Part shown: piece by piece, positions 4,573-32,355 of the stretch
Numbering within the stretch: the stretch's first letter is position 1
How the letters are laid out: the number at the start of each line of letters is the position of its first letter
Source of the DNA: Clostridia bacterium
GTDB lineage: Bacteria > Bacillota > Sulfobacillia > DUSP01
NCBI GenBank assembly: GCA_012842575.1
Contig: DUSP01000144.1
Coordinates: 1-38,474 of the forward strand
DNA length: 38,474 nt
Direction: 5' to 3'
Notes under the pieces: model-generated
The model's input: the letters and a program-made list of their open reading frames with translations, nothing else
Database searches by the model: none
What the model was told of the DNA's origin: nothing
Program-made: the position numbers and the translations under genes

Positions 4573-5739
4573 ATGACGGCTGGTTTGTCAGATGTTCAGT
4601 TGTCGGATGGTCAAATGAAGTTCTCCAAAATGCGGGCCTCGGAGTCGTCCTCATCCCCGATCTACTATTTGAACGGTATCGTGACCACAGGCGAACCGCC
4701 TGCGGTTTCCGTGGAAGACCGGGGTTTTTTCTTCGGAGACGGCATATATGAAGTCATCAGAGTTTATGACGGTAAGCCCTTCTGCCTGCCACAACACCTG
4801 GAGCGACTTCAAAAGAGCGCGAGGGCCGTCGAGCTCGATCTCGACGCTGAACCCCAGCGCCTGTCTCCGACGGCGTTGACTGCCTTGATAAGCGACTTAA
4901 TACGCCAGGGAGGATTTGGTGACGCCAGCATCTACCTTCAACTGACGAGGGGGCAAGCTCCCCGAAACCACGTATACCCCCCTAAAGGTACGCCGCCGAC
5001 TCTATACATCACCATCAAACCGACACCACGACAGCCCGCCGAGATTCTCCAAAACGGGATACGCTGCATAACTGTGGAGGACCTGAGATGGTGGAGGTGT
5101 GACGTCAAGACCTTAAATCTGCTATACAACGTAATGGCCCGCAACAAAGCCACCGAGTATGGCGCGTATGAGGCCATACTCTATAGGGTATTCCCCGTCA
5201 TGAGGAGGCCTCACCCGTCCAGCAAGAGGACATCGGCGGAAGACCGGCTCGTCCAAACCCCTACCGAATGCACTTTTGGCCTTCCAGAGATTCGGATCGC
5301 CCCTGTCCCCATAAACGAATCAAGGGGGAACGGTTGCTGGGGCAGGATGCTCGGGTCGCAGGAAAAGATGCTCGAGTCACAAGGAAACCCACTTGCAGAC
5401 CATTATACCGAGGTAACCGAAGCCAGTTCTGCCAACATCTTTGCAGTGGTGGATGGGAAACTGATTACCCATCCTGCCGATAACCTCATACTCCATGGGG
5501 TAGTGCGCCAGACGGTCATCGAGCTTTGCAGACGCAACGGTATAGAAGTAGTCGAGCGACCCTTCGGCCTCGCCGAACTGGCTCGAGCATCAGAGGCTTT
5601 TCTTACGGGAACTATTCTCGAGATAGCGCCCGTGGTGAATATCGACGGTAAGCCCGTAGCGAACGGTATGCCCGGACCTATAACCCTCGCAGTCGCACAC
5701 CTTTATAAAGAATCATACGAACGAGGCTTTGCATTTTAG
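4573..5739 (+). CDS. Class IV aminotransferase, D-amino-acid-transaminase-like, with a ~70-residue insertion
   Basis: 388 residues from ATG 4573, which has GGAGAGGAG 9 nt upstream; a TTG at 4528 would add 15 residues without a better site. Fold-type IV PLP enzyme. Visible motifs are DRGFFFGDGIYE, RGQAPRNH, WWRCDVKTLNLL (the Lys of DVKTLN is the PLP lysine), YEAIL, EASSANIF and THPADNLILHG. RGxAPRxH and RWxRCDxK point to D-amino-acid transaminase (Dat), which makes D-Glu/D-Ala for peptidoglycan, rather than IlvE, although ilvBN is nearby. Between YEAILYR and TEVTEASS, where Dat has only a few residues, there is about 70 residues of unrelated sequence (DNA about 5191-5409) that ends in a 21-bp tandem duplication (GRMLGSQEK/KMLESQGN). 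The enzyme could still fold if the insertion is a surface loop. The SDR gene follows 79 bp later. Confidence 0.87.
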   Translation: MTAGLSDVQLSDGQMKFSKMRASESSSSPIYYLNGIVTTGEPPAVSVEDRGFFFGDGIYEVIRVYDGKPFCLPQHLERLQKSARAVELDLDAEPQRLSPTALTALISDLIRQGGFGDASIYLQLTRGQAPRNHVYPPKGTPPTLYITIKPTPRQPAEILQNGIRCITVEDLRWWRCDVKTLNLLYNVMARNKATEYGAYEAILYRVFPVMRRPHPSSKRTSAEDRLVQTPTECTFGLPEIRIAPVPINESRGNGCWGRMLGSQEKMLESQGNPLADHYTEVTEASSANIFAVVDGKLITHPADNLILHGVVRQTVIELCRRNGIEVVERPFGLAELARASEAFLTGTILEIAPVVNIDGKPVANGMPGPITLAVAHLYKESYERGFAF

Positions 5740-8980: not shown

Positions 8981-10795
8981 TCAGCCTTCCGGAAAGCAGC
9001 CCATCATTTTGGCTAGACTCCCACCTGCCGGAACCATTGGCAGAACGTTTTCTTCAGGGCAAATCCTGAAATCGATTACGACGGGGCCGTTAAGACTCAT
9101 GGCGCGCTCGAGCCCGGCCCTTACGTCGCGCGCTTTGGTGACGCGCAGTCCGTTACACCCGAGGGCTTCCGCCAACTTGACGTAGTCGGCGCTACCGTTT
9201 AGACAGGAGTGGGAATATCTCTTTCCGAAGAAAAACTCCTGCCACTGCCTCACCATACCGAGATACATGTTATTAAAGACGGCGATTTTCACCGGTAGGC
9301 GTTGCTCCGACGCCGTGACCAGTTCCTGACAATTCATGAGGAGACTCCCGTCTCCGGAAACCAGAAATACCACTTCCCCAGGTCTCCCCACCTGCGCCCC
9401 TATAGCGGCCGGTAAACCATACCCCATCGTGCCGAGGCCACCTGATGTTATGAAGGAGCGGGGTCGCTTGTGTGTATAGTACTGGGCGGCCCACATCTGG
9501 TGCTGACCCACGTCTGTGACCACCACGGCGTTACCGTCCGTGACCCTGTATATTTCTTCGATCACGTACTGAGGCTTAATAGAACACTCCGCATCCGGGT
9601 CGGATTGACGATAGGTGAGGGGGCGCTCCGTTTTCCAACGTGTGACCGTCTCCTGCCATTCGTCGAGGCGGCCACGACCCCGCCTGTGATCGCAGGCCAC
9701 GAAGTCGTCATCCTTCAGGCACTCAAGAAGCGCTGACAAGGACCACCTCAGATCTCCCACTACCGGAACGTCCACTCGCACGTTCTTGCCGATTTCAGCC
9801 GGGTCTATGTCGAAGTGAATTATCTTGGCGTTCGGAGCAAACTCGTCGATTTTACCGGTAACACGATCGTCAAAGCGGACACCGATGCCCAAGAGCAGAT
9901 CACACTCACTAACCGCCATGTTAGCCGCATACGTACCGTGCATGCCGACCATGCCGAGGAAAAGCGGGTCATCGCCGGGGAAGTTGCCGAGCCCCATGAG
10001 ACTCGAGACCACCGGTATGCCGGTAAGTTCGACGATTTCCCTGATGCTATTCCAGGTATTCGAAATAGTCACGCCTCCGCCTATGAAGAGAACCGGCCGT
10101 CTGGCCCGGACTATTTCCTCCGCCGCCTGTTCCACTGCCTCAATTGATCCTTCAAAGATGGGCCGGTATCCACGCAAAGAAACCTCTTTCGGATAACGGT
10201 AGTATCCTTCAGTTTGAGTGATGTCCTTGGGAATATCGATAAGAACAGGTCCCGGCCGGCCTGTCCGGGCTATATAAAAAGCTTCCTTTATGGTCCGGGG
10301 AAGGCGCTGGAGATCCTTTACGATGAAGTTGTGTTTTGTAATGGGGAGCGTGATTCCTGTTATGTCTACTTCCTGAAAAGAGTCGCGACCGAGTAGGGGG
10401 AGAGCCACTTGACCCGTAAACGCCACTACCGGAACCGAGTCCATATAGGCGTTGGCTATCCCCGTGACCAGGTTCGTGGCCCCAGGACCCGAGGTGGCAA
10501 TACAGACGCCCACTCGGCCGGTGGCTCGAGCGTACCCGTCGGCTGCGTGAGCCGCACCCGCCTCATGGCGCGTCAGAATGTGCCTCAACCCTGAGTCGTA
10601 GAGTGCATCGTAAAGAGGTAACACCGCGCCGCCCGGGTAACCGAACACCACTTCTACGCCTTCGGCCTTAAGGGCTTCTATCACCATCTGGGCCCCAGTC
10701 ATGCGGGTGGACGGGTTGGGCACTTCCTGGCAGACGGTGGCTGGGTCTCTTTCTTCCACGCCAGATCTTACATTCACTTCAGGAACCGCCGACAC
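8981..10795 (-). CDS. ilvB: Acetolactate synthase, large catalytic subunit
   Basis: 604 residues from GTG 10795, chosen because GGAGGT lies 8 nt upstream; an ATG at 10834 would place the start upstream of that ribosome site. TPP- and FAD-dependent enzyme condensing pyruvate to acetolactate or acetohydroxybutyrate, the first common step of valine/leucine/isoleucine synthesis. Seen: the catalytic-Glu region RHEAGAAHAADGYARA, FGYPGGAVLPLYDA, and the C-terminal TPP motif GDGSLLMNCQELVTA ending in NN. About 35 residues precede the conserved MTGAQMVIEALKAEG start, a modest N-terminal extension. Upstream is an isoleucine-type T-box; downstream is ilvN. No ilvC follows, since a convergent permease ends the operon. 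Confidence 0.95.
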   Translation of the reverse strand: MSAVPEVNVRSGVEERDPATVCQEVPNPSTRMTGAQMVIEALKAEGVEVVFGYPGGAVLPLYDALYDSGLRHILTRHEAGAAHAADGYARATGRVGVCIATSGPGATNLVTGIANAYMDSVPVVAFTGQVALPLLGRDSFQEVDITGITLPITKHNFIVKDLQRLPRTIKEAFYIARTGRPGPVLIDIPKDITQTEGYYRYPKEVSLRGYRPIFEGSIEAVEQAAEEIVRARRPVLFIGGGVTISNTWNSIREIVELTGIPVVSSLMGLGNFPGDDPLFLGMVGMHGTYAANMAVSECDLLLGIGVRFDDRVTGKIDEFAPNAKIIHFDIDPAEIGKNVRVDVPVVGDLRWSLSALLECLKDDDFVACDHRRGRGRLDEWQETVTRWKTERPLTYRQSDPDAECSIKPQYVIEEIYRVTDGNAVVVTDVGQHQMWAAQYYTHKRPRSFITSGGLGTMGYGLPAAIGAQVGRPGEVVFLVSGDGSLLMNCQELVTASEQRLPVKIAVFNNMYLGMVRQWQEFFFGKRYSHSCLNGSADYVKLAEALGCNGLRVTKARDVRAGLERAMSLNGPVVIDFRICPEENVLPMVPAGGSLAKMMGCFPEG

Positions 10796-10839
10796 CTGAA
10801 TACACCTCCGGAAATATGAGCGCAGAGAGAGCAAATATA

Positions 10840-11149
10840 AAGCCCTCCGCCCTCAGCGTCAAGGCTAAGGGGCGAAGGGCCTCGCGTTACCACCCTTATT
10901 CATCCGGTCCTCGCGAACCGGATCTCACCAGGTACTTGTTCTCCTTGAAGAACGCCATACCCTGCGCCTGTAACGGAGCACACTCCGGCAAGGCTTACTA
11001 TGATTTCAGCCTGCATCTCGGGGATGATTTTCCGGTCGTCCTCGCTCCGGTACCGCTTTTCAGCCACCGCGGCTCTCTGTGACCGGGGACCGCCGTACTC
11101 GTTCCCGTCATTGACCCATTCTCAAGTCTGTGTCCGATTTAGTCAACCC
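10840..11149 (-). promoter_or_regulatory. T-box riboswitch leader of ilvBN (probable Ile specifier)
   Basis: Minus-strand leader with the T-box core AGGGTGGTAACGCG (10884-10897, a variant of AGGGTGGNACCGCG), a Stem III hairpin just before it (ATCCGG...CCGGAT, about 10901-10924), the Stem I distal motifs CAGAGAG...GGCTGAAA, and a GAGTA segment near its 5' base. In the specifier region the sequence GAA-A-AUC-A-UCCCC aligns with the usual GAA-N-codon-N layout, giving AUC (11026-11028), an isoleucine codon. This fits control of branched-chain amino-acid synthesis by tRNA-Ile charging. Presence of a T-box is near certain; the codon call rests on manual alignment. Confidence 0.9.
10842..10880 (-). 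terminator. T-box-controlled intrinsic terminator of ilvBN
   Basis: On the minus strand GCCCTTCGCCCCTTAG pairs with CTGAGGGCGGAGGGC and is followed by a T-rich run (TTTATATTT). Its 5' arm begins directly after the T-box sequence, the standard arrangement in which uncharged tRNA stabilises the competing antiterminator. Confidence 0.85.
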
Positions 11150-11370: not shown

Positions 11371-11468
11371 GCACTGACAAGGGCAAACCTCACCGAAAGG
11401 GAGGGGCGCAAAGCCACGAGTCTAAAGTCCTGTGGTGATCCACAGGTACCATGACAGTCGGGTTGCCA
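11371..11468 (+). promoter_or_regulatory. Cyclic-di-GMP class I (GEMM-I) riboswitch
   Basis: The segment shows the GEMM-I hallmarks in order: GGCAAACC (11382-11389), CCGAAAGG, GGGGCGCAAAGCC, GAGTCTAAAGTC, a short hairpin CTGTGG...CCACAG, then GGTACCATGACAGTC and the closing GGTTGCC (11461-11467) that pairs with GGCAAACC. Class I aptamers bind one c-di-GMP. An overlapping set of helices follows (CCAAAG...CTTTGG and TTCCTAC...GTAGGAA, the latter sharing bases with terminator 1), so an anti-terminator/terminator switch can be drawn. The controlled gene is the secreted metalloprotease at 11610. The spacer 11184-11370 upstream is A/T-rich and must hold its promoter, which I could not assign. Confidence 0.92.
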
Positions 11469-11500
11469 AAGGTTCCTACTGAAAGTCTTTGGCCAAAAAA

Positions 11501-11534
11501 GCCCGCCCGTAGGAAAAGCTCCGGCGGGGTTTTT
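11501..11534 (+). terminator. Riboswitch expression-platform terminator 1
   Basis: CCCGCC (11502-11507) pairs with GGCGGG (11523-11528), followed by TTTTT and preceded by an A6 run. The loop contains GTAGGAA, complementary to TTCCTAC (about 11473-11479) next to the aptamer, giving a possible alternative fold. Confidence 0.75.
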
Positions 11535-11545
11535 GGTTATGAGCC

Positions 11546-11590
11546 GATGGGCTTGTCCGTGCTTCTTGCTCGGACAAGCCCATCAATTTT
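11546..11590 (+). terminator. Second, strong intrinsic terminator before the metalloprotease gene
   Basis: A perfect 14-bp stem, GATGGGCTTGTCCG (11546-11559) with CGGACAAGCCCATC (11571-11584), an 11-nt loop and then AATTTTTT. It lies only about 10 nt before the ribosome site AGGAG of the following gene, so transcription into that gene must pass two terminators in tandem. Confidence 0.8.
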
Positions 11591-11609
11591 TCAGGAGCTA
11601 CAGCACGAC

Positions 11610-12389
11610 ATGAGGACACGAATTACGCTCTTAACACTATTCTCCGTAATTCTCTTCATCAATACCGTAACCTTTGCTCGGGAATGTGGGGCTAGCTTCT
11701 CAGTTCTATCACAGAAAGAAAGTATCAAATACGGGGTCAAAGTAAGGTACGGCCGATATATGCTCCGTACAAATTGGCACGGAATGGAATTCTACCTCGA
11801 TGAACCCGGCTTAAAAACTCATTCCTTAAAACCAATACAACTAGTAGACCGGGAAGCTTACGGCGAAGCGCTAAATGGAGTTTCCTTTCCTCTGCACTGG
11901 CTCACCGAATACCGCATTTGCATTCTACCCTATCGCCTATTTGACTACCCCGATACCCTGGCCCTAACCTTGGACGCTAACGCTACGTACGTTTTCGCTA
12001 CTACCTGGCAACTCACTCCCAGGATGGTACATCGTCTCGCTGTCCATGAACTCGGTCACGTTGTCGACTTTAGATTGATGAACGAAAAGCGATGGGCCGA
12101 ATATAGGAAAATCCGTGGTCTTACAGATACCATGAAATATCGTGATACGAGTCCCTACCATAAAGACCGCCCTCGAGAGGTCTTCGCCGAAGACTTTCGC
12201 CTACTATTTGGAGCGGAATTGGCCGCTAAAAATCCACACGAGAATTTTGGCCTCGCCAACCCAAAGGAAGTGCCAGGGTTAAAGGACTTCTTTCTCTCGC
12301 TGGTCCCAAACATCATTACACTTTCCGATGAAACCACGAGGGCCAACCCTGAGCAATCAGACCCTGTACAGGGGAAAACCCGTCTCTAG
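11610..12389 (+). CDS. Secreted zinc metalloprotease-like protein under c-di-GMP riboswitch control
   Basis: 259 residues from ATG 11610 (AGGAG 11 nt upstream). Upstream codons in frame belong to the riboswitch and terminators and should not be translated. Residues 1-23 form a signal peptide (MRTRITLL then a hydrophobic core to FAREC). The zincin motif HELGH is at 146-150 (VHELGHVVDFR), and a probable third ligand Glu is at 190 within PREVFAEDFRLLFG. The HELGH...E-x-FAE spacing is that of the anthrax-lethal-factor-like/Pro-Pro endopeptidase (M34) type, but I cannot assign the family firmly by eye. In Clostridioides difficile the secreted Pro-Pro endopeptidase PPEP-1 (Zmp1) is controlled by a class I c-di-GMP riboswitch, so this locus may be a functional parallel: a protease that releases surface adhesins. 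Codon use looks more A/T-rich than its neighbours. It is convergent with the group II intron. Confidence 0.8.
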   Translation: MRTRITLLTLFSVILFINTVTFARECGASFSVLSQKESIKYGVKVRYGRYMLRTNWHGMEFYLDEPGLKTHSLKPIQLVDREAYGEALNGVSFPLHWLTEYRICILPYRLFDYPDTLALTLDANATYVFATTWQLTPRMVHRLAVHELGHVVDFRLMNEKRWAEYRKIRGLTDTMKYRDTSPYHKDRPREVFAEDFRLLFGAELAAKNPHENFGLANPKEVPGLKDFFLSLVPNIITLSDETTRANPEQSDPVQGKTRL

Positions 12390-12489: not shown

Positions 12490-12524
12490 CACCACCGTAC
12501 GTACCGTTCGGTATACGGCGGTTC
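12490..12524 (-). ncRNA. Group II intron domain V
   Basis: Minus strand ACCGCCGTATAC, CGAACG loop region, then GTACGTACGGTGGT forms the short conserved catalytic hairpin. It begins at the RT stop codon (12523-12525), so the ORF ends exactly where the catalytic RNA core begins. Confidence 0.8.
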
Positions 12525-13779
12525 ACCAAGCTTGACGAATGCTTCGGTAACGTGCGGTCAAACTCATGAGGCCCTGGGCCTCCCAGTATGCGATGCCCAG
12601 GGCTCTGTTCATTGGCCCATGGGCCATTCGCCAGGGCCCTTTGCGGGCATTCGCAAACTGATGCACAACCCATTGCGGTAGACCCAGTGCGCGCAGTTCT
12701 CGGTAGCGCGTCCGGACCCGCTTCCACTGCTTCCAGACGCACATGCGAAGACGGCGTCTCAGCCATTCTTCAAGGGTTCCAAAGACGCTGGGGGTTTCAG
12801 CTAAGGCAAAGTATCCCAGCCACCCGCCCAGGTAGGCGTTGATGCGCCGGATCCGATCGGCCATGGTCACGGGTTTGCTCCGGGAGGTGAATTCCCGGAT
12901 CTTGTTCTTGACCCGTTCAATGGTCTGCGGAGCCAGGCGGATGAGGATTCCCTCTTTGCTCTTGTGCATGCTGAACCCCAGGTACTTCAGCTTCCACGGC
13001 CGGTCCACGCTGCTCTTTGATTCGTTGACCTTGAGTTTTAACCGCCTCTGCAGGAAGTCGCGGATGCTTTGCATGACCCGTTCGGCCGCCCGTCGGCTTC
13101 TGACGTAGATGTTGCAGTCATCGGCATAGCGGACGAACTTGTGGCCCCGCTTGTCAAGCTCTTTGTCGAGGTCGTCAAGGTAGATGTTGGCCAGCAACGG
13201 ACTTAAGGGACCTCCCTGCGGGGTTCCCTCCTCCGTCCGCACGACCACGCCTTCTAACATGACCCCCGCCTGCAGGAAGCGGCGGATGAGCTTGAGGACT
13301 CTCTTGTCCTTCACTTTCCTGGCCACCCGGGCCATGAGGATGTCGTGGTTCACTCCGTCGAAGAACTTCTCGATGTCTACGTCCACGACCCAGTCGTATC
13401 CGGCTTCTGCGTACGAACGCGCCATCCTGACCGCGTCGTGAGCTCGCTTGCCGGGCCTAAACCCGTAACTTGACTCAGAAAACGTCGGGTCGAAGATGGG
13501 CGTAAGCACCTGCAGAAGCGCCTGCTGGATTAGGCGGTCCAAAACGGTGGGTATCCCTAAGAGCCTCATGCCTCCGCCCGGTTTCGGGATTTCGACTCGG
13601 CGGACCGGCTTTGGCTGATAGGTCCCTTGGAGGAGCTGTTCTCGAACTTGGGGCCAGACTTCTCGAAGGAGGTCGCGTAGTTCGTCTACCTGGACTCCGT
13701 CGATTCCGCCTGCGCCTTTGTTCTCCTCGACCCGCTTTAGCGCGGCCCACATATTCTCGCGGGCCACCACCTTCTCCAT
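12523..13779 (-). CDS. ltrA: Group II intron reverse transcriptase/maturase
   Basis: 418 residues from ATG 13779 (AAGGTGA 8 nt upstream); the frame stays open to ATG 13941 and many annotations would use that longer version. RT motifs seen: KGAGGIDGVQVD, PKPGGGMRLLGIPTV, YGFRPGKRAHDA, DVDIEKFFDGVNH, GTPQGGPLSPLLANI, the catalytic RYADD, and KLKYLGFS. The X/maturase domain follows, with a terminal segment ending YWEAQGLMSL. No HNH endonuclease domain is present, as in class C intron proteins. The protein splices the intron RNA and reverse-transcribes it at the target. Encoded in domain IV. Confidence 0.95.
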   Translation of the reverse strand: MEKVVARENMWAALKRVEENKGAGGIDGVQVDELRDLLREVWPQVREQLLQGTYQPKPVRRVEIPKPGGGMRLLGIPTVLDRLIQQALLQVLTPIFDPTFSESSYGFRPGKRAHDAVRMARSYAEAGYDWVVDVDIEKFFDGVNHDILMARVARKVKDKRVLKLIRRFLQAGVMLEGVVVRTEEGTPQGGPLSPLLANIYLDDLDKELDKRGHKFVRYADDCNIYVRSRRAAERVMQSIRDFLQRRLKLKVNESKSSVDRPWKLKYLGFSMHKSKEGILIRLAPQTIERVKNKIREFTSRSKPVTMADRIRRINAYLGGWLGYFALAETPSVFGTLEEWLRRRLRMCVWKQWKRVRTRYRELRALGLPQWVVHQFANARKGPWRMAHGPMNRALGIAYWEAQGLMSLTARYRSIRQAW

Positions 13780-14419
13780 CAGGCCATCACCTTGGTCCTC
13801 GCGAGGTGTTCCTCCGCTTCGTGCCAACGGAAGGCTCAGCCCTTCTGCGGTCCCAGGCGTATTCACCGCTTCCCCCCGCAGACAGGCCCTGTTATGGGTT
13901 TTCTGCTTTCTTTGCCTTCCGTGCGAACTCATCGGGTTCACCTCTGACTTGATGTTCGGGCCTTCCCTGGCCGGGTATGCTCCGTTTAGGTCCGGCCTAT
14001 CCGTTTGCTGCCCCTTTCGTCTGGCAGTGCCTCACTAGCCGGGCCATGCATCGCTCCTCGTTCCAGGTACTATGCCCTCTGCTGACTCCTGCCGGTTCAA
14101 CCGGGCCTCTCGACCCGGCTTGCCAGTATCCCTGGCCTATCCGACAGGCCTCCCCGGGTAAGGGCGCTGTCTTTCCCTCCATCTACCCGCCCCATTTACT
14201 CTTGGCAGCCTTCGGTAGCAAGGACTTCGCGTTGTCATGCACGCTCATCCAGCTGCCACTAGCCTCGCCTGGGGTTCGTGGTCCTCGGGCCGGAGGCTTG
14301 CCGCCGGCTTCCTTCAGATTCCACCTCGCGGTGGACACCCTTGCCTTAAGCTACGGCTACTGCTACCTTCGCCGTTCGGGACTCTCACCCTGAAGACAGC
14401 GCCCATGCCGGGCGCACAT

Positions 14420-20902: not shown

Positions 20903-20988
20903 ACCCAAAACCCCTCTCGAGCCGTAAGCCGCCTTGAAGACCATTCAATGCACGTTTCACGTTCCGTTCTCGATACGTTACCGTTCTC

Positions 20989-21113
20989 GTATGGCCACCC
21001 TCTTACCGGTCTGGTATGACCGCCCTCTTACCTCTCTTGTATGACCACCGTTTTACCTGTTTTGTATGGCTACCGTTTTACCCGTCCGGTATAGCCACCG
21101 TTTTACTTGCTCG
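20989..21113. repeat. Five-copy 25-bp tandem repeat inside the AAA/DUF1257 cluster
   Basis: Five head-to-tail units start at 20989, 21014, 21039, 21064 and 21089. Consensus on plus: GTATGRCCACCSTYTTACC followed by six variable bases (YBKBYB). Every unit is exactly 25 bp, and a decayed copy may precede 20989. The array fills the spacer between the DUF1257 stop (21117) and the DUF2997 gene. No unique spacers, so it is not CRISPR. Confidence 0.9.
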
Positions 21114-25557: not shown

Positions 25558-27594
25558 TCAGGTCGTGCCGTTCTGGGTGCGTGTCGCCCGGCCGCACGCT
25601 GGCAATGTGAAAGCGAACGTCGACCCCTTTCCAACTTCGCTCACGACATACACGCGCCCCCCATGGGCCTCCACGATCTCTTTGACGATGGAAAGCCCAA
25701 GGCCCGTTCCGCCTCCCTCGCGGCTCCGCGACTTTTCGACCCGGTAGAATCGCTCCCATATGTGGGCGAGGTCCTCCGCAGGAATGCCTGGGCCCTTGTC
25801 TTTCACTTCCACCAACACTTCCTTGGCTTCGGCCAATGGCTCGCCTTCATCCGCCGATACCTCCGCGCTCCCGTCCGCCAAGGCCTCCCCGCTCGCGTCC
25901 GCCGACACCTCCCCACTCCCCTCCGCCGGCACTTCCCCATTCCCGTCCGGCAAGACCTCCTCGGCTCTATTTCCCGACGCCTTCTCATTGCCCATGGCCT
26001 CGCCAGCAGGAATGGACGAAAGCCTCACCTCGATGTAGGAACCTCTAGGCGAGAATCGGGTCGCATTGGAGAGGAGGTTTATCAAGACCTGTTCGATGCG
26101 ATCGCGATCTGCCAATGCTTCGGGCAATCCCGGTTCGGTCAAAAGCACCGCGCGTATTCCCTTTGCATCCATCTCAGGCCCCATCTTTTTCAGTACCGTT
26201 TCCGTGACATCCGAAAGGCGTAACGGTTTCATGTTCCAATTGATCTTCCCCGCTTGCAGTAACGACAGTTCGAGGAGATCCTTGATGAGCCTCTCAAGTC
26301 TCAGAGTCTCATCGTATACGGTTTTGAAGTATCGTTCCCGCGTCTTCGCATCCTCCCCGACCCCGTCCATCAAGGCTTCGAGGAACGCCCTTATGGAAGT
26401 CAAAGGCGTGCGAAGTTCGTGAGAAACGTTGGCGATGAAGTCACGCCTCAGTAGGTCGAGGCGTTTGAGTTCGGTGATATCCTGAAGTACGGCCACTGCC
26501 CCGAACCGATCAAGGCCCTCAAGGCCTCGCCCCACGGGGGAGGCGTGCACCACCACATAGGACTTCCCTTCTCCGATAACGAATTCCTCGGTGGCGGGTT
26601 TACCTTCACGGACCACGCGGAGCATCAAATCCCCGAGGCCCGGAAGTACCGCCTCTAAGTCGCTCACAGGTCTTGATAAGTATTGCCCTTTCTGTACACC
26701 CAGCACGCTTTCGGCGCGGGAGTTCATGAGGGTGATACGGGTAACGGCGTCCTGAACCTGAACCATGCTTGACACCCCGCCATCGCGTTCGGGGTTTTCC
26801 TCTACTTCACAGGCCACCACGCCCTCCGCCATGCTAGCTAGAATGCTTTCTATCTTGCCTTTTTCGCTGGCTAGCTCGTTTATGCTCTTGTCCAGGGTAC
26901 GAGTCAAGGAGCTGAACGTCCTCGCAAGATCGCCTATTTCATCATCGGAATATACGGGGACATCTGTCTTGAAATCCCCCTCCGCCATCCGAATGGCGGC
27001 ACGGTTTATGGCTTGGAGCGGGCGCGAAATGGATCTTGAGAAGGCATAACCCAAAAGTAAAGACAATAACGTGGCCCCGAGGGCGGCATAAACGATGAGG
27101 CGCCGCACCGCTACGAGCGCCGATGTCACGCCGGCTACCGGGGAATATAAGAAGAGGGCGCCCACCACCGTCCCCCTGGAGTAAACGGGAACCCCCACCG
27201 CCAGTGTCGGCTCCTGGATTCCTTTGATTGTACCCCGCTTCGCGATTATCGTCCCCCCGAGTACTGCGGATAGCTCTTCGAGGTCAGGGCGCATTCCAGG
27301 TTGTATGCTCCCCGAACTGATGGTTGAACCCACTACCATGCCATCGGCGTTCACTAAAACGATCCTGGCATTGAGTAGCTCGTCGATCCCGGACAAGAGT
27401 AGGTCCAAGCGTGGGTCCGGGAGAAGGCCTGTAAACCACCGAGGCCGTTCCGATCTGCTCACCGCCACGATCAGCCTGCTTATTTGTTGACCCCTGACGG
27501 CGAGCTCCCTCTCTTTTACGCTAAAGTAGTAGTTCGCGAATAATTGAGAAAAGAGAAACCCCACCACCAGGAGGGTGACGGCTATCAGGATCAT
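25558..27594 (-). CDS. PhoR-like sensor histidine kinase with repeat insertion in the ATP-binding domain
   Basis: 678 residues from ATG 27594. TM1 (1-20), an extracytoplasmic sensor region, TM2 (~165-186), HAMP (~187-240), a PAS-like domain (~245-375), HisKA with phospho-His H392 (ANVSHELRTPLTS), and HATPase with N box (DRIEQVLINLLSNATRFS), G1 (DKGPGIP) and G2 (GGGTGLGLSIV). Between the N box and G1 there is an insertion of about 55 residues, including four 8-residue repeats (553-584). The start is doubtful: the frame is open without a usable start codon back to the response-regulator stop, while ATG 27640 with a good ribosome site leads into this frame only if the T6 tract at 27628-27633 is read as T5. 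It pairs with the response regulator directly upstream. Confidence 0.92.
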   Translation of the reverse strand: MILIAVTLLVVGFLFSQLFANYYFSVKERELAVRGQQISRLIVAVSRSERPRWFTGLLPDPRLDLLLSGIDELLNARIVLVNADGMVVGSTISSGSIQPGMRPDLEELSAVLGGTIIAKRGTIKGIQEPTLAVGVPVYSRGTVVGALFLYSPVAGVTSALVAVRRLIVYAALGATLLSLLLGYAFSRSISRPLQAINRAAIRMAEGDFKTDVPVYSDDEIGDLARTFSSLTRTLDKSINELASEKGKIESILASMAEGVVACEVEENPERDGGVSSMVQVQDAVTRITLMNSRAESVLGVQKGQYLSRPVSDLEAVLPGLGDLMLRVVREGKPATEEFVIGEGKSYVVVHASPVGRGLEGLDRFGAVAVLQDITELKRLDLLRRDFIANVSHELRTPLTSIRAFLEALMDGVGEDAKTRERYFKTVYDETLRLERLIKDLLELSLLQAGKINWNMKPLRLSDVTETVLKKMGPEMDAKGIRAVLLTEPGLPEALADRDRIEQVLINLLSNATRFSPRGSYIEVRLSSIPAGEAMGNEKASGNRAEEVLPDGNGEVPAEGSGEVSADASGEALADGSAEVSADEGEPLAEAKEVLVEVKDKGPGIPAEDLAHIWERFYRVEKSRSREGGGTGLGLSIVKEIVEAHGGRVYVVSEVGKGSTFAFTLPACGRATRTQNGTT
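25843..25938 (-). repeat. 24-bp coding tandem repeat in histidine kinase
   Basis: Four units encode GEVPAEGS, GEVSADAS, GEALADGS and AEVSADEG. They sit in frame in the ATP-binding domain, in a loop between the N and G1 boxes, where related kinases have only a few residues. Confidence 0.8.
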
Positions 27595-27663: not shown

Positions 27664-28425
27664 TTATACCCTCCCGAGTCGCATATTTGGCGGTTCGAAC
27701 CTGTAACCCGAGCCCCAGACGGTTTTAATGAGACCCCTCTCATCACTCGATTCGACGTCAACATCCCGGTATTCGCCGACGCCACGGTTGGATCCAGTTT
27801 CCGTCTTGAAACCGAGTTTCTCTCTCAACCTCTTTATGTGGGTATCCACGGTTCGGGTGTCGCCAAAGTAGTCGTATCCCCATACCTTTTCCAGGAGCTG
27901 TTCCCGGCTGAACACTCGGCCGGGGTTGCTGGCTAAAAACCACAATAACTCGAACTCCTTTGGGGTAAGGAGGACTTCTTTTTGGTTATAAAACACCCTG
28001 CGCGAAGCCCTGTCAATTTCCAAACCCGGAAAGCGCAATGTTTCCTCAGGGGAAGGCCCCGTATCCGCTCGCCGCAAAACGGCCTTTACCCTCGCCATGA
28101 GTTCCCTGGGACTAAAGGGTTTGGACACGTAATCGTCGGCACCCAACTCAAGACCGAGGACCTTGTCGAATTCCTCGCCTCTGGCCGTCAGCATTATGAT
28201 AGGGACCTGCGATTTGGCCCGGATGCGCCTACATACTTCCCAACCGTCCAGCCGCGGAAGCATCAGGTCCAGAATCACCAGGTCGGGCTTAGTTCGTTCG
28301 AAAGTCGTCAAGGCTTCTTCCCCGTCGGCGGCCTCCTCCACCCCGTATGCGTCACGTTCGAGGTATGCGCGAAGGATTTCGCGTATCTTCTCGTCGTCAT
28401 CGACCACCAGGATTTTCGCGCTCAA
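27664..28425 (-). CDS. OmpR/PhoB-family response regulator
   Basis: 253 residues. The receiver domain has the acidic pair DDD (9-11), phospho-acceptor D53 (LVILDLMLP), T in MLTARG and K in VSKPFSP. The C-terminal winged helix carries LTPKEFELLWFLASNPGRVFSREQLLEKVWGYDY and VDTHIKRLREKLG. Between that recognition region and TVWGSGYRFE, where PhoB has about 10 residues, there are about 27 (FKTETGSNRGVGEYRDVDVE...), an in-frame insertion in the wing. TTG 28425 has AAGGTGA 7 nt upstream. The stop is in the same frame as the following histidine kinase, 69 bp before its first ATG, so they form one operon. Target genes unknown; the adjacent Spy-like gene suggests an envelope-stress role (inference). 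Confidence 0.93.
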   Translation of the reverse strand: MSAKILVVDDDEKIREILRAYLERDAYGVEEAADGEEALTTFERTKPDLVILDLMLPRLDGWEVCRRIRAKSQVPIIMLTARGEEFDKVLGLELGADDYVSKPFSPRELMARVKAVLRRADTGPSPEETLRFPGLEIDRASRRVFYNQKEVLLTPKEFELLWFLASNPGRVFSREQLLEKVWGYDYFGDTRTVDTHIKRLREKLGFKTETGSNRGVGEYRDVDVESSDERGLIKTVWGSGYRFEPPNMRLGRV

Positions 28426-31091: not shown

Positions 31092-32355
31092 CGAAGGCTC
31101 GGCCCTTGCCGCACTTATAGGCCTTCGCCGTACAATTCCCGATCATCACCGCCTTTTCACAACCGGGGTGGTCGCCCGCACCGCGGCCCACCGCGATGAC
31201 TAGGTTTTCATTACGCTCTTTGGGTAAATAGGACCGTAAGAAGGATACAACGGTTGACGAGCACCCGCTACATGCCTGGTCAGCTATTATCGTGACCCCA
31301 GGGTAGACTTGGCCCATCAGGTCGGGGGTGGCCCTCGTAAACCTGCGTCCAAGGCGCATCCAATCAGAGGGCCATACTTCACAACAGCCCACATTCGGCG
31401 GACCCAATCCTTTTTCCGCGCACAGCGTAAGATGAGGGATCTCCGCCGGTTCGAACCCCATCAAGGAGGCCGCGACGAAGTCCGCTGCCAACAGGTTGTG
31501 GGATGCGATGACCGTATCCATCCTCACCGGTGAACCTCCCCCGGGCCCGAAACCTTCCATGCCAAAGGTTCCATCCACCAGGGCAAATGTCGGAACGAGC
31601 CCGCGGAACGCCGAAAAGATGTCAGCGATAGCTTTATCGAGGGTATGATAGGTTTCATCGCCAGTATGAGTTTGATCTTCACCCAGACCCACTGCCTGCC
31701 CCGATTGACGCATTCCCTCCGCTGCCGGACCCCTTTCGGGCTCCGGCAGCGCGTCTTTCGCCTCCATCAACTGATGCATCCGTATCTTCTCGCGCCTCGG
31801 GAGGCAGCCCTTCAGGTTCTTTACGGACAAGGTGGCCCCGGTATACATATGGGTCTTCATGACCGGTATGGAAACCACGAGGTCAAAGTCGCCGACACAG
31901 GAAGAAACGGCAACGGAGTCGATTATGAGCGGCCCGGGAACCGGCACCCAAACTGGCGGGAAGGCGTCCATATCAAGGACCTCTATCCCTTCCTCTCTCG
32001 CCACTTTCAACAAACCCGACCTCTCCAAGGACTCAAGCGTATCGACCCCGGTTATGGCCCCTTCACCCATGACCACCTCCGAGGCTTGAGCTTTCTTGAA
32101 AAACCTAATGGCTCCGCGAAGGACTTCCGGATTCGTCGCAACGGCGGACCCCGGTTCCCCCATGAAGCCGGCGTTGGGCTTGAGGAGTACTTTTTTGCCA
32201 CGTGTGACTACTTTGCCGCCTTCAAGTCCGTTTGCCGCCCCAAAAAATGCCAGTTCGAGGGCGTTTTCGGCTATTTTGGAGTGATCGGTACCGTGCACCA
32301 CCCATACCGAGTACATCGCTTCGCATTGCGCCACACTTTCAGTTGTCCGCTTCAT
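31015..32355 (-). CDS. DUF362 protein with Cys-rich C-terminal domain
   Basis: 446 residues. The DUF362 core is clear: KVLLKPNAGFMGEPGSAVATNPEVL, SIPVMKTHMYTGATLSVKNLKG and SHNLLAADFVAASLMGF. About 40 extra, low-conservation residues interrupt it after KIRMHQLME (PEPERGPAAEGMRQSG...). The C-terminal ~110 residues contain CSGC, HPGCEK, GNC, KCGKG and KGCPP, a spacing that could bind a metal or Fe-S cluster. Function of DUF362 is unknown, though many members carry ferredoxin domains. ATG 32355 overlaps the symporter gene by 17 bp, so the pair is translationally coupled. Its 3' end overlaps the convergent gene at 29673-31091 by 77 bp. Confidence 0.82.
   Translation of the reverse strand: MKRTTESVAQCEAMYSVWVVHGTDHSKIAENALELAFFGAANGLEGGKVVTRGKKVLLKPNAGFMGEPGSAVATNPEVLRGAIRFFKKAQASEVVMGEGAITGVDTLESLERSGLLKVAREEGIEVLDMDAFPPVWVPVPGPLIIDSVAVSSCVGDFDLVVSIPVMKTHMYTGATLSVKNLKGCLPRREKIRMHQLMEAKDALPEPERGPAAEGMRQSGQAVGLGEDQTHTGDETYHTLDKAIADIFSAFRGLVPTFALVDGTFGMEGFGPGGGSPVRMDTVIASHNLLAADFVAASLMGFEPAEIPHLTLCAEKGLGPPNVGCCEVWPSDWMRLGRRFTRATPDLMGQVYPGVTIIADQACSGCSSTVVSFLRSYLPKERNENLVIAVGRGAGDHPGCEKAVMIGNCTAKAYKCGKGRAFVKGCPPVPSRVLAAVSTCLSPQETE

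Follow-up and report, generated by a model that had tools for sequence, protein, structure and literature searches.

Enzymes of Plasmodium carry low-complexity insertions rich in Asn and Lys. Among bacteria, Rickettsia palindromic elements are described as in-frame insertions of ~150 bp in unrelated genes that are presumed to be tolerated by the protein fold; they fall into families whose members are related and share a conserved peptide (PMC10969869). Short variable segments of bacterial genomes are a further described case, for which flanking direct repeats and illegitimate recombination are named (PMC2884548). We analyzed a window of 38,474 nucleotides from the draft genome of a Clostridia bacterium (G000; assembly GCA_012842575.1, contig DUSP01000144.1), in which the gene for a D-amino-acid transaminase (Dat) contains a long in-frame insertion and other genes contain similar ones. 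These inserts are like the familiar ones of Plasmodium in being hydrophilic, predicted to be disordered, lineage-specific, located in loops of conserved housekeeping enzymes and found across the proteome, but they occur in a bacterium with a GC content of 0.55, and the residues that abound in them are Gly, Pro, Ser, Arg, Asp, and Glu rather than Asn and Lys. They share with the Rickettsia elements in-frame placement across unrelated genes; unlike those elements, the G000 inserts are unrelated and the Dat insert is not palindromic (PMC10969869). Like the short variable segments, they are short DNA differences, although the latter were compared between strains within a species (PMC2884548), and here different families of a single order are set side by side. 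We recognized no published report of such a genome-wide pattern in the open-access literature.

The host gene lies at 4597–5739 (+), with residues numbered from 4597; the open reading frame (4528/4597–5739) is a single uninterrupted frame that includes the insert and has no in-frame stop. Its product is a fold-type IV PLP enzyme. D-alanine aminotransferases were the nearest solved chains in a PDB search, and a Foldseek search with the predicted model returned the Dat structures 3lqs and 1daa as best matches (TM 0.95 on target). The NCBIfam model TIGR01121 scored 273.8 bits against a cut-off of 277.45, with its match split on either side of the insert; together, the Pfam (PF01063, Aminotran_4) and NCBIfam matches cover two stretches, one to residue 197 and one from ~272. 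Both the catalytic lysine (K171) and the PLP-binding glutamate (E275), which we take to be equivalent to K145 and E177 of the Bacillus enzyme, are present within this Dat fold. Given that these two residues are invariant across our alignments, the enzyme is probably working. One paralogue was found, as a 314-residue frame on contig 7, and no other Dat match was detected elsewhere in the genome; because its two matching pieces are 12 bases apart, the paralogue does not carry such an insertion.

An aldo/keto reductase gene lies upstream of Dat; downstream are an SDR-like gene (named from sequence), an amino-acid permease gene and acetolactate synthase genes. The large-subunit gene of the last (8981–10834) is preceded by a T-box leader at 10865–11120 (-). 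Further along the window, a c-di-GMP-I riboswitch at 11372–11470 (+) overlaps the start of an open reading frame (11451–12389) with a HELGH metalloprotease-like motif, and a group II intron at 12523–14335 (-) comprises a reverse-transcriptase-like frame (12523–13941) and two Rfam D1–D4 matches (14042–14335).

An earlier note on this DNA, made from the letters alone, had proposed an in-frame insertion of ~70 residues in a D-amino-acid transaminase-like enzyme. Our alignment of this protein with 109 homologues (29 from relatives and 80 from named genomes) confirms it. At 5188–5412 (+), 75 residues replace a three-residue hairpin turn, a net gain of 72 residues (216 nt). The spacing between E192 and E275 is 82 residues here, compared with 10 residues in 85 homologues, 11 in 20, 12 in one and 16 in three. 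The three homologues with 16, Dat proteins of Nitrosomonadales/Gallionella (L090, L106, L108), have six more residues in this turn and show that it accepts small additions in other lineages. The note had also held that the segment was an insertion and not an ancestral domain, a view that orthologues sharing the domain would have contradicted; this too is borne out, because 109/109 homologues have a short turn at the site and lack the insert. The Dat insertion is therefore real and, judged by this alignment, specific to its lineage among the homologues compared. Taken by itself, it is ordinary.

An AlphaFold2 model built on 66 aligned sequences had a mean pLDDT of 84.8, with the core at about 97 and most of it above 90. 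The strands that flank the insert (192–200 and 269–276) were kept in the model. In contrast, pLDDT within the insert was 36–68 and fell below 50 for residues 217–254. The insert is thus predicted to form a disordered loop at the tip of the hairpin.

We examined the DNA of the insert for signs of its origin. The earlier note had described a 21-bp duplication at the end of the insert. A tandem duplication is present, in frame, with copies at 5346–5366 and 5367–5387 (+) that encode MLGSQEK and MLESQGN, but it is imperfect (17/21 bases identical) and stops ~25 bp before conserved sequence resumes. The related suggestion that the insert is repeat-derived visibly holds for these 42 bp only, about the last fifth. 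Elsewhere in the insert, no internal repeat exceeded shuffled sequence, and the first 155 bp resemble the remainder of the gene no more than shuffles do. A 15-base likeness to the gene start was discarded because shuffles do as well. The GC content of the insert equals that of its gene. By codon statistics, the insert falls slightly under the lowest of 82 equal-length gene pieces, and its coding frame scores best of its six frames. In synonymous codon score, the insert (0.095) fares no worse than the remaining gene (0.041).

These properties bear on whether the insert is an error. The draft genome is in 220 contigs, 92.8% complete, with 3% contamination, which would leave room for an assembly error or strain chimera. 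However, the insert has a length that is a multiple of 3, no in-frame stop and intact conserved sequence on both sides; its GC and synonymous codon use are like those of the gene, and similar insertions occur in many other genes. We consider this explanation very unlikely. The clean site between conserved flanks could also suggest an intervening sequence, namely an intron, intein or bypass element that is removed from RNA or protein or bypassed in translation. Against this, the insert is open in frame, its predicted RNA fold is weaker than that of shuffles (z +1.53), and it contains no Pfam family at E 1. No Rfam family, including group I and group II introns, matched the insert in a covariance-model scan that did detect the group II intron at 14042–14335. 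An intervening sequence is highly improbable.

Relatives of the insert were sought widely. Its DNA is single-copy, with no second copy found in its own genome, and no inverted repeat marks its ends. The peptide had no match in the PDB at E 10, hit only itself at E 0.001 when 398 phylum genomes were searched, and gave just three matches, at E 0.5–0.8, among plasmids and phages. No relative was found in viral contigs with the insert and the family alignment as queries, and none in a collection of genome contigs with the single Dat protein. The peptide also matched six further class genomes weakly (best uncalibrated E value 9e-4, at 32% identity); these matches were read as composition, because their frames are unrelated, some cross stops, and none is Dat-like around the match.

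Insertion of other DNA (intergenic, antisense or foreign) by illegitimate recombination, kept since it was open by chance, would fit the first 155 bp, which are devoid of repeats or likeness to the gene above shuffles, and codon statistics at the low edge of genes. Its own genome holds no donor, however, and peptide searches of genomes from the class and phylum, and of phages, plasmids and viral contigs, gave no convincing relative, a result that is uninformative if the event is old; we regard this origin as quite unlikely. The earlier note had instead likened the segment to selfish palindromic coding elements. An in-frame insertion of ~216 bp in the middle of an enzyme does recall the Rickettsia kind, but the insert has neither several related copies nor palindromic or hairpin-forming DNA, and the inserts of other G000 genes are unrelated to it. 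With the weak RNA fold noted above, these results leave the selfish-element proposal scarcely credible.

A further alternative is that the loop was gained once and kept for a role, such as partner binding, dimer regulation or localization. The frame kept across 72 residues and the synonymous codon score, no worse than in the gene remainder, would agree with such a functional module. On the other hand, the insert is predicted to be disordered, its peptide has no relative in Pfam, the PDB or the 398 phylum genomes at the thresholds used, and similar hydrophilic inserts occur in many unrelated G000 proteins. A functional module therefore seems unlikely.

Three further genes of the window have similar inserts. 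A WalK/PhoR-like histidine kinase has a loop insertion within its ATPase domain (25825–26016, -) that adds ~60 residues and has an 8-residue repeat (GEVPAEGS/GEVSADAS and so on); it contains a tandem array of 24 bp x 4.6 at 25850–25960, and the flanking matches are 66–67 residues apart here compared with 15–24 bases in G028, G015, and G001. A DUF362 protein has a 41-residue insertion (residues 195–235; 31651–31773, -), or about 41–44 extra residues, that is absent from G001 and other relatives; G001 and G028 have 27–30 bases there. In the response regulator adjoining the kinase, a family model alone points to a probable loop insertion of ~20 residues in the C-terminal winged-helix domain (27718–27798, -). 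Separately, five tandem copies of a 25-bp unit are found at 20978–21106, outside the long open reading frames listed.

We then compared insertions genome-wide between G000 (~0.7 Mb used) and three relatives (0.34–0.40 Mb each), one of the same order (G001) and two more distant members of the same class (G023, G024). Genes were called greedily and reciprocal-best pairs were aligned, giving 82 pairs (28,891 columns) with G001, 21 with G023 and 28 with G024. Against G001, G000 had 26 insertions of at least 15 residues, in 18 genes, compared with two in G001 (sign test, 3e-6); the counts were 11 compared with 1 at 25 residues or more and 134 compared with 20 at three or more. One of the two G001 insertions (L250/L137) was still counted although the subfamilies differ by family models and the pair are probably not orthologues. 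The largest of the 26 is the Dat insert. No excess was seen against the other two relatives, either at 15 residues or more (3 compared with 3 for G023; 2 compared with 4 for G024) or at three or more (21 compared with 16; 30 compared with 25). In composition, the G000 inserts show an excess of Gly, Pro, Ser, and Asp and a shortage of Ile, Leu, and Val. They are unrelated to one another and to the other G000 sequence used, apart from a single match of 17 bases and two weak ones at the peptide level.

The difference might reflect compactness of G001 itself, but family models show otherwise for most of the scored genes. Outside the window, 15 G000 genes carry insertions; 13 of them (all but L133 and L300) were scanned, together with their G001 partners, against NCBIfam models. 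Four had no family at threshold, and eight of the nine scorable cases were placed on the G000 lineage. Five are clean gains, +19 to +46 residues relative to the profile with partners at -7 to +3: GlyS (+41 in G000, -4 in G001), DnaG (+26, -5), RpoD (+19, -1), WalK (+46, -7), and WalR (+31, +3). Three others, HtrA, an RqcH/EfbA-like protein and a P-type ATPase, are consistent with a G000 gain, as the insert interrupts or shortens their family match. ArgS (+9 compared with -22) was ambiguous.

Tandem arrays (Tandem Repeats Finder, score at least 50) provide a view of the mutational background. Density per Mb was 166 in G000 (first 483 kb), 26 in G001, 90 in G023, and 340 in G024, which has more arrays than G000 at a GC of 0.72; pooled loci of relatives had 46 and the 80 named Dat loci 30. 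When sequence was simulated with matching third-order composition, the densities were 0 per Mb for G000, 4 for G001, 31 for G023, 72 for G024, 13 for the pooled loci and 1 for the Dat loci. In 699 kb of G000 (626 kb coding, 73 kb noncoding), noncoding DNA held 67 arrays in 73 kb (~920 per Mb), about sevenfold denser than in G001 (4 in 30 kb). Periods divisible by 3 were found for 19/67 noncoding compared with 37/50 coding arrays (Fisher, 1e-6), which fits random duplication with selective retention of in-frame changes. Thus, G000 has a genome-wide insertion excess relative to one relative, plus an excess of tandem arrays. Because only three of the 26 insertions overlap an array of score at least 40 (0.77 expected; 32 of 1000 random placements reach three), direct evidence for slippage as the source of the inserts is weak.

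Repair genes were also surveyed. No MutS (TIGR01070) match exceeded the cut-off in G000, whereas 12/12 relatives exceeded it; a residual match of 118 bits is within the range of the relatives' second matches, which we take to be MutS2-like. Similarly, no MutL match in G000 exceeded the cut-off, compared with 22 of 25 relatives; the three exceptions are two incomplete genomes (70% and 85%) and one with a partial match. Since mutS and mutL adjoin in G001 and the G000 assembly is 92.8% complete, a single gap could account for the absence of both. The mutL neighborhood was not found in ~0.7 Mb of G000. Because mismatch repair acts chiefly on loops of a few bases, loss of MutS and MutL would not simply yield 21-bp duplications. 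A contribution of their lack to the insertions is speculative. RecJ loss was ruled out as a cause, RecJ being present.

Overall, the Dat insert is probably a tolerated, lineage-specific expansion of a surface beta-hairpin turn, arising from a tendency of this genome as a whole to gain short DNA. Short stretches would be gained by tandem duplication through strand slippage or by other local insertion. Insertions would arise at any length, and those that survive would be in frame and in exposed loops, persisting as hydrophilic, disordered stretches within the fold. These would then drift until a repeat origin is no longer recognizable, as may have happened in the first four fifths of the Dat insert, which we infer was made by the same mutational process. 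A stronger version, possible but doubtful, is that the lineage lost MutS/MutL or another brake on slippage and that its whole proteome, including a sigma factor, primase and tRNA synthetases, is inflating by in-frame duplications that become disordered loops. If true, this would parallel, in a bacterium, the insertion-rich proteomes of some protists, at a stage when the raw duplications can still be seen between genes.

Conserved bacterial enzymes with disordered insertions are mostly encountered singly; here, many unrelated ones occur in one genome, alongside a plausible mutational source in arrays that are dense between genes and filtered for frame within them. If sister genomes confirm the pattern, it would offer a test of whether loss of mismatch repair is involved and a measure of how far mutation pressure alone, as opposed to selection for function, lengthens bacterial proteins.
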